7,146 bases of DNA, taken from contig JALGWK010000093.1 in assembly GCA_025774205.1 (NCBI GenBank), positions 1 to 7,146 on the forward strand. Direction: 5' to 3'. Below the pieces are notes generated by a model. That model had not been told where the DNA came from, did no database searches, and worked only from the letters and a program-made list of their open reading frames with translations. This document shows positions 5,276 through 7,146 of this stretch, one piece after another. The position numbers and the translations under genes were made by a program. Numbering within the stretch: the stretch's first letter is position 1; the number at the start of each line of letters is the position of its first letter. Source of the DNA: a bacterium. GTDB lineage: Bacteria > Blakebacterota > Blakebacteria > Blakebacterales > Blakebacteraceae.

Positions 5276-5321
5276 GCTCCCATTCTCCCCGATCGACCTG
5301 ATTTGTCAATCTGTCCCGTTC

Positions 5322-5393
5322 CTACTCCCGCCGCAGCGCCTCCATCGGATCGGTGGTCACAGCCTTCCAGACCGTCAGAAGAGAGACGTCCAT
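5322..5393 (-). pseudogene. C-terminal remnant of a MacB/FtsX-type ABC transporter permease
   Basis: Read on the minus strand, the last codons before TAG (5324-5322) give SLLTVWKAVTTDPMEALRRE. The LLTVxxxxxKAxxxDPxxALRxE pattern is the typical last-helix-to-C-terminus ending of MacB/FtsX-like permeases, such as the ADOP family. The frame stays open further upstream on that strand, but its translation (rich in Arg, Ser, Pro and His) no longer looks like a membrane protein, and the other two frames contain stops or nothing recognisable. Only about 24 codons therefore survive of a gene normally hundreds of codons long. The stop is 46 bp before the propeller ATG, so a full permease may once have headed this cluster. 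The upstream limit given (an ATG at 5393) is arbitrary. A chance match of this length cannot be excluded. Confidence 0.5.
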
Positions 5394-5542
5394 CGAAACC
5401 GCCGGGGTTCTATTCCGTATCACTGAAGCAGATCGATCCGGGAGCCGCGAGGGCAGAGGATGCCCCCGGCATCCGGTTATGGGAGTATCTCGAACGGCTG
5501 ATCGATGACCTGCCGGGTGATCGGCAGCCGTGATGACTGAAT

Positions 5543-5546
5543 GGAG
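5543..5546 (+). promoter_or_regulatory. Shine-Dalgarno deciding the amidohydrolase start
   Basis: GGAG at 5543-5546 is 9 nt before the ATG at 5556. It overlaps the in-frame ATG at 5541, which has no Shine-Dalgarno of its own. Starting at 5556 gives an N-terminus of Met-Lys-Arg followed by a hydrophobic core, a normal signal peptide. The 5541 start would add MENPL in front. Confidence 0.55.
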
Positions 5547-5555
5547 AATCCGCTC

Positions 5556-7079
5556 ATGAAGCGCTCAATGATCCTCACCACTTCGCTGCTCCTTATCGCA
5601 ATGACCACAACCGGTGTCCAGGCCCAGGAACGGGCCGAGATGGCCATCGTCAACGGGAAGATCTGGACCGTCGACGAATCAAATCCGTGGGCGGAAGCGG
5701 TCGCGGTGACCGGCGGCAGGATCGTCGCCATCGGAGATTATTCTGAAGTGAGGCGGCATATCGGACGCCGCACCGAGGTCCTCGATGTCGAGGGGGCCTT
5801 CGTGATGCCCGGCTTCATCGACTCCCACTGCCACTTCTCCAGCGGCGGCAGGCGCCTCTCTCAACTCGATCTGAGCCGGGTTTTCACGATTGACGCTGTG
5901 CAGGAACTGCTGGCGGCAGCGGTTGCCGAAACAGAGCCGGGTGAAGCCATATGGGCGCTCGGGTCATTCCCCAACACCGTGATCTTCCCCGGCCTGGGCT
6001 GGCCCACGAAGGAGATGCTCGACGCGGTCTCACCCGACAATCCGGTGGTCGTGAACCGTGGGGGCGGTCACGCCGTCTGGCTGAACAGCCGGTCACTTGA
6101 ACTCTCCGGCATCACTGGGGATACAGAGGTTCCCCCGGGGGGAGAGATCACACTCGATCCCGACACCGGGGAACCGACCGGCATCCTGAAGGAAGCCGCC
6201 GCGAACCTCATGCGGGTCCCCAATACCTGGACACCTCGCGAGTACATCGATGCCGCGCTCGACTATTCCAGGCAGGTCGGAATCACCACCATCAGCACCG
6301 GATCGTCCCGGGAGGACAGAGATATCTTCCTCAAACTGCAGCAGAACGGGGAGTTGACCCTGCGGATTTCTGCCTGGCTCGGTCTGGGCGGCCTCGACCG
6401 TTACATCGAGGAGGGGATCGAACAGGACCGGGAAAGCGACTGGGTGCGGATCGGCATGCTCAAGGGGTTCCTTGACGGAACCATCGGCGTCAGGTCAGCT
6501 CTGATGTTCGAGGACTTCACCGAGGAACCGGGTAATACCGGCCTGGCCCAGTACGAAGAAGAGGAGTTCTATCGGGTCGTTGCCCGGGCGCACGAACACG
6601 GTTACCAGGTCGGCGTGCATGCCATCGGCGACAGGGCCGTCCACTGGACCCTGAACGCCTACGAACGCGCCCGGCAGCTGCACGGCCGAAAGGATCTCAG
6701 GCATCGAGTGGAGCATGGAGCATGCCACCGTGATCGCCCTGGACGATATCCCCCGGTTCGGGGAACTGGGCGTCATTGCCTCCATGCAGCCGAGCATCAC
6801 GGGAGGACAACCTTATCGGGAGGAACGGCTGGGTGTGGAGCGCTCCCACCGGGTGGACATGTGGCGCTCCCTTCTCGAAACGGGCGCCATGCTCTCATGG
6901 GGGACCGACTGGCCGGTCTCCAACATCGATCCGAGGATGAACCTGGTCAATCTTGTCACCCGTTACCCCGAACAGCGGCTCACCATGGAAGAGGCGATCA
7001 GGTACTACACCCTCGGTTCGGCGTATGCCAATTTCTGGGAGGAGGATCTGGGCAGTCTGGAGGTCGACAAACTGGCTGA
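5556..7079 (+). CDS. Exported YtcJ-type amidohydrolase (Amidohydro_3 family), frameshifted
   Basis: A metal-dependent hydrolase of the amidohydrolase superfamily, YtcJ/LAF3-like; the substrate is unknown. Residues are numbered from the ATG at 5541; the likelier start is Met6 at 5556. A signal peptide ends near V-Q-A28. Family landmarks follow: MAIVNGKIWTVD (34-45), GGRIVAIGD (58-66), MPGFIDSHCHF (89-99, HxH metal ligands His96 and His98), HAVWLNSRSLE (177-187), KGFLDGTIGVRSA (308-320), GVHAIGDRA (358-366, ligand His360) and RHRVEH (387-392, ligand His392). After His392 the frame is lost: the next 120 codons to the TGA at 7079 give Arg/Gly/His-rich sequence unlike the family, while the genuine C-terminus continues in another frame from 6724. 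The product as written lacks the metal-site Asp of GTDWP and is predicted inactive. Family members start with an N-terminal beta-sandwich and a TIM barrel, consistent with this order. No promoter could be assigned. Confidence 0.85.
   Translation: MKRSMILTTSLLLIAMTTTGVQAQERAEMAIVNGKIWTVDESNPWAEAVAVTGGRIVAIGDYSEVRRHIGRRTEVLDVEGAFVMPGFIDSHCHFSSGGRRLSQLDLSRVFTIDAVQELLAAAVAETEPGEAIWALGSFPNTVIFPGLGWPTKEMLDAVSPDNPVVVNRGGGHAVWLNSRSLELSGITGDTEVPPGGEITLDPDTGEPTGILKEAAANLMRVPNTWTPREYIDAALDYSRQVGITTISTGSSREDRDIFLKLQQNGELTLRISAWLGLGGLDRYIEEGIEQDRESDWVRIGMLKGFLDGTIGVRSALMFEDFTEEPGNTGLAQYEEEEFYRVVARAHEHGYQVGVHAIGDRAVHWTLNAYERARQLHGRKDLRHRVEHGACHRDRPGRYPPVRGTGRHCLHAAEHHGRTTLSGGTAGCGALPPGGHVALPSRNGRHALMGDRLAGLQHRSEDEPGQSCHPLPRTAAHHGRGDQVLHPRFGVCQFLGGGSGQSGGRQTG
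6709..6724 (+). repeat. Tandem heptamer duplication (GGAGCAT x2) causing the frameshift
   Basis: GGAGCAT occurs at 6710-6716 and again at 6717-6723; the period-7 tract spans 6709-6724. Seven is not a multiple of three, so the extra copy shifts the frame. Removing one copy gives gtg-gag-cat-gcc-acc-gtg-atc, that is V-E-H-A-T-V-I, the expected family sequence. The duplication also creates an inverted repeat GCATG-GAG-CATGC (6713-6725), a structure that could promote slippage. Confidence 0.9.
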
Positions 7080-7146
7080 CATGGTGGTCCTGTCCGAGAA
7101 CCTGCTCGAGATCTACCCTTTCAAGATCCTCCAGACGGATGTGCTC
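6724..7146 (+). pseudogene. C-terminal portion of the same amidohydrolase, displaced frame, runs off the window
   Basis: From GCC at 6724 this frame is open for 141 codons to the window edge, with no stop. It reads ATVIALDDIPRF, GVIASMQPSI, MLSWGTDWPVSN, QRLTMEEAIRYYTLGSAYA, LGSLEVDKLADMVVLS and YPFKILQTDVL. These are the expected YtcJ-family elements that follow the RHRVEH motif, including the metal-site Asp at 6907-6909. The last residues resemble the typical ending of the family, so probably only about 10-25 codons are missing beyond the window. In-frame ATGs exist at 6715 and 6784, but neither has a properly spaced Shine-Dalgarno. It is unlikely to be a separate gene and is best read as the 3' part of the broken amidohydrolase. 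The lack of stops means the break is recent, reversible or artefactual. Confidence 0.85.

Follow-up and report, generated by a model that had tools for sequence, protein, structure and literature searches.

Organization of the interrupted amidohydrolase gene

The window analysed here, i.e., the whole stretch of 7,146 nucleotides, makes up contig 312 of a draft metagenome-assembled genome (MAG) that has 527 contigs and is 86% complete. Towards its end it carries a metal-dependent hydrolase gene whose reading frame changes at a short tandem duplication, and the features of this locus are as follows:

5541 to 6708, plus strand: 5' part of a gene for a metal-dependent hydrolase of the YtcJ type (Amidohydro_3), whose product appears to carry an N-terminal signal sequence (from the open reading frame, the family profile and the sister genome)
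6709 to 6724, plus strand: 16-bp tract (TGGAGCATGGAGCATG) made up of two perfect tandem copies of 7 bp and 2 further matching bp, which shifts the frame at RVEHA
6718 to 7146, plus strand: 3' part of the same hydrolase gene, read in the shifted frame and containing GTDWP, whose Asp is the predicted metal-site residue
6725 to 7079, plus strand: aberrant out-of-frame tail readable from the 5' frame, ending at the TGA at 7077–7079 (from the open reading frame)

The 5' frame runs from the ATG at 5541 to the TGA at 7077–7079. Both parts of the gene score well above the 29.7-bit gathering cut-off of the Amidohydro_3 profile (PF07969), the 5' part matching positions 1–315 of 472 (197 bits, E 9e-58) and the 3' part positions 310–458 (95 bits, E 7.9e-27). 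Since the first match stops at profile position 315 and the match on the downstream frame begins at 310, the loss of frame coincides precisely with the repeat. Among solved structures, 3icj and 3igh come closest to both parts, which can be aligned one after the other to a single protein of this type; the gene in the window contig differs from it by its interrupted frame. No single continuous frame in this contig carries all of the metal-site motifs: HxH (within DSHCHF), VHAIGD, and RVEH lie in the 5' frame, while GTDWP is found in the shifted frame only. We assign the metal-binding His on strand 6 of the amidohydrolase superfamily to RVEHA and the Asp on strand 8 to GTDWP, and on this assignment the product of the 5' frame would have an aberrant tail of ~120 residues and no Asp. 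The downstream frame opens at an ATG at 6715, inside the repeat, and no stop codon interrupts the hydrolase frame on either side of it. The genome encodes about ten Amidohydro_3 relatives, the broken gene among them.

Tandem Repeats Finder delimited the tract at 6709–6724 (period 7, match 100%), and therefore the unit can be read in three equivalent registers. The doubled unit GGAGCATGGAGCAT occurs once in the window, at 6710–6723, and in 0 of 200 shuffles; the tract contains no Ns and lies 422 bp from the contig end at 7146. Around 2.4 heptamer tandems with at least nine matches are expected by chance in 580 kb, so that such a tandem is not rare in itself, but its coincidence with the loss of frame is not due to chance. 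An earlier note, made from the letters of the window, had described a perfectly duplicated heptamer, a YtcJ-type amidohydrolase, a frame lost exactly at the duplication and no further stop or lesion on either side, all of which our analysis bears out. Its description of the restored C-terminus needs trimming: the end is family-like and includes the Asp (in GTDWP), although it is not complete, as the contig end truncates the gene ~16 codons short of the end of the sister protein.

A comparison of positions 5280–5540 with the sister genome (L002, 1–740) shows different genes upstream of the hydrolase: in the window a six-bladed-propeller lipoprotein-like gene on the other strand, in the sister a metallo-beta-lactamase-like protein. 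A short minus-strand remnant at 5322–5390 ends in TTDPMEALRRE*, which resembles a MacB/FtsX-type ABC permease C-terminus, and the body of such a gene is missing upstream of it. A second candidate gene remnant at 5400–5533 had no match and was dropped.

The sister orthologue and other relatives

Comparison was made with one other genome of the genus (hereafter the sister; G001, public record JALGVQ010000276); a search of the genus turned up no further genome of the window's own species. The sister orthologue shares 82% DNA identity, has an intact frame of 550 amino acids, and holds the heptamer once (GTCGAGCATGCC). Its alignment to the window shows a single 7-nt gap at the repeat, where the sister reads RHRVEHATVI, the very motif that the earlier note had expected to reappear upon removal of one copy. 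The note had also called for a comparison in related genomes, and this came out in the same direction: the sister is single-copy and intact, and none of the matches from 60 genomes, relatives and controls, was reported with a frame broken at the same place.

Amino acid identity to the sister orthologue is 84% for the 5' part and 89% for the 3' part. Codon counting gave dN/dS values of 0.11 for the 5' part, from which the signal region was left out, and 0.08 for the 3' part; these do not differ (Fisher p 0.56). By these counts, selection has maintained both sides of the break until now. Equal purifying selection on both sides implies that the lesion is either very young or not real.

Exact tandem duplications across the MAG

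Our survey of the MAG itself covered 78 readable contigs, totalling 581 kb of 3.09 Mb, with 43 contigs that read as N excluded. Perfect tandem duplications with a period of 10–70 bp numbered 26 (45 per Mb), many of them frame-breaking (G000 contigs L111, L114, L135, L165–L168, L173, L180, L194, L197, L200, L204, L213, and L214). With periods of at least 10 bp, the sister had one in 152 kb and the other records nine in 852 kb, corresponding to 7–11 per Mb in these MAGs, the control records being of mixed composition and mixed quality. The MAG thus stands above comparable genomes, with 26 copies in 581 kb vs. 10 in 1.0 Mb (rate ratio, p about 2e-5 when the sister and the other records are combined and p 0.03 for the sister by itself). 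At periods of at least 16 bp, 18 duplications were perfect, seven were 90–99% identical and 17 were 80–90% identical, a spread that represents a surplus of fresh copies and not a range of ages. Eleven of the 18 perfect copies had a period that is not a multiple of three and hence break the frame, which gives no sign of selection for frame.

Half of the copies (13 of 26) matched over exactly one period without extra microhomology, as chance extension predicts, and there was a slight excess of copies with 3–4 extra matching bases. Exact copies were over-represented near contig ends: 8 of 23 lay no more than 500 bp away, compared with 13% expected (p 0.008). This bias was weaker for the 18 longest copies, with a p-value of 0.015 overall and 0.09 with their contigs held fixed. 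Shorter periods behaved differently: those of 7–8 bp alone showed no excess over chance in the MAG survey, and in a frame-switch scan of 4–6 bp periods consistent and inconsistent matches occurred at similar rates. Short N-gaps are present in the MAG contigs, so the MAG was probably scaffolded, and one of these gaps (4 Ns at L219, 847–850) has the 6-bp CGCATC on both sides, i.e., an unmerged duplicate. Contig L173 holds nested exact copies at 6806–6947, in which a 57-bp unit is doubled and its last 28 bp doubled again (A B A B B).

Core genes interrupted by exact copies

The duplications are as indifferent to gene essentiality as they are to frame, with waaA, ppdK, and recJ affected. Frame-breaking copies were located in the following genes:

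L114, 375 to 418: pyruvate phosphate dikinase (ppdK), 22-bp copy
L167, 2805 to 2824: KDO transferase (waaA), 10-bp copy
L214, 689 to 769: recJ, 40-bp copy
ABC ATPase gene: 10-bp copy
Gene with a lytic-transglycosylase (SLT) C-terminus: 25-bp copy
Sulfotransferase gene: frame-breaking copy
L111: TonB receptor gene, frame-breaking copy

For ppdK, waaA, recJ, the ABC ATPase, and the SLT gene, the sister is single-copy and the length missing from it equals the period, either exactly or once small gaps are netted out. In the case of ppdK, the 22-bp copy is the sole gap in 1216 bp aligned at 90% identity. Confirmed sister comparisons exclude the L111 TonB receptor duplication, for which no clear sister orthologue was found, and L197, where both genomes are repetitive. 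That a free-living cell would bear so many breaks in conserved genes is implausible, but not that a draft would contain such errors.

Origin of the duplicated heptamer

Judged from the assembled sequence, the duplicated heptamer is probably a local assembly error. Two sub-contigs would share an overlap of a few bases at their ends, their joining would retain this overlap twice and so create an exact tandem copy, and the retained copy would put a spurious frameshift into a gene for an exported amidohydrolase that is intact in all other respects. We infer that the excess of exact copies in the MAG arises from such joining of overlapping ends, with the step from overlap to duplicate being the presumed part of this scheme. 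The 7-bp copy presumably belongs to the same class; given that periods of 7–8 bp show no excess, its membership rests on the break in frame and on extrapolation from longer periods. Retention of overlapping flanks as duplicates during scaffolding has been described for IDBA-UD and CLC assemblies (Chen et al. 2020, PMC7111523). The likeness to that error lies in exact duplicates where pieces of a draft MAG are joined internally, with the L219 pair still showing Ns in between; it differs in that the described copies have Ns between them, whereas most copies in our MAG do not, and in that IDBA-UD and CLC may not be the assemblers used for this MAG.

A genuine and very recent 7-bp duplication by replication slippage, with loss of the gene's function in the strain sampled or in a minority within the population, is possible but less likely. 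The broken gene's product would retain the first metal ligands but not the final strands of the barrel and, with them, the Asp of GTDWP. Short tandem duplications are ordinary spontaneous mutations, the gene is free of other lesions, and the site in this species offers a 2-bp TG microhomology (GTGGAGCATG) that is absent from the sister (GTCGAGCATG). The absence of decay on either side would, however, require extreme youth, and the MAG-wide surplus of exact copies in core genes is hard to square with a living cell. Spontaneous tandem duplications of 26–116 bp are known from the lrp gene of Xenorhabdus (PMC6786866), where an exact tandem copy likewise breaks one reading frame, although that case concerns one gene in sequenced isolates while the heptamer has dozens of counterparts throughout a draft that is unverified. 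If instead all the exact duplications were real, a process in the lineage or population would have to make tandem copies of 7–70 bp without microhomology at a very high rate, which we regard as very unlikely; were it true, such a process would transiently silence many genes, core ones included.

Still harder to credit is a contingency locus, in which gain and loss of the heptamer would act as a reversible on/off switch of the hydrolase. In its favour, three does not divide the period, the copies are perfect, and short repeats inside genes are known to slip reversibly, as do the icaC tetranucleotides of Staphylococcus aureus (PMC7911514), which share with the heptamer a coding-region unit not divisible by three. 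Yet the heptamer differs from icaC in having no multi-copy tract, no conservation, and no evidence of two states: only two copies are present here, and the sister has one with a different codon, so that the repeat is not maintained as a multi-copy tract in relatives. No frame-broken relative was found among the matches in the 60 genomes, similar copies of all lengths fall in housekeeping genes, unlike contingency loci, and as one of about ten Amidohydro_3 relatives the hydrolase has no apparent surface-antigen role. Programmed recoding, or re-initiation at the ATG at 6715 to yield two functional fragments, has a next to negligible probability. That ATG does start the downstream frame within the repeat, but the GGAG lies just 1 nt from it, no slippery run is seen, the 5' frame runs on as aberrant sequence to 7079, and no relative with a split at this site was found in the 60 genomes. 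The earlier note had raised a reversible on/off switch, which the two copies, the single-copy sister, the lack of a repeat across the family and the lack of any frame-broken relative speak against, and it had held switch, recent mutation and assembly error to be equally open, a balance that the genome-wide evidence in the MAG tips towards assembly error.

Implications for broken genes in draft genomes

If the duplicated heptamer is an artefact of assembly, it has little meaning for biology. What it would illustrate is that one draft MAG can hold dozens of exact tandem stutters that mimic pseudogenes or phase-variation tracts. The number of exact tandem copies per Mb compared with a sister genome, together with frame and microhomology statistics, provides a repeatable test for this condition. 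Given such MAG-wide stutters, broken genes in bins of this kind should not be taken as loss of function.
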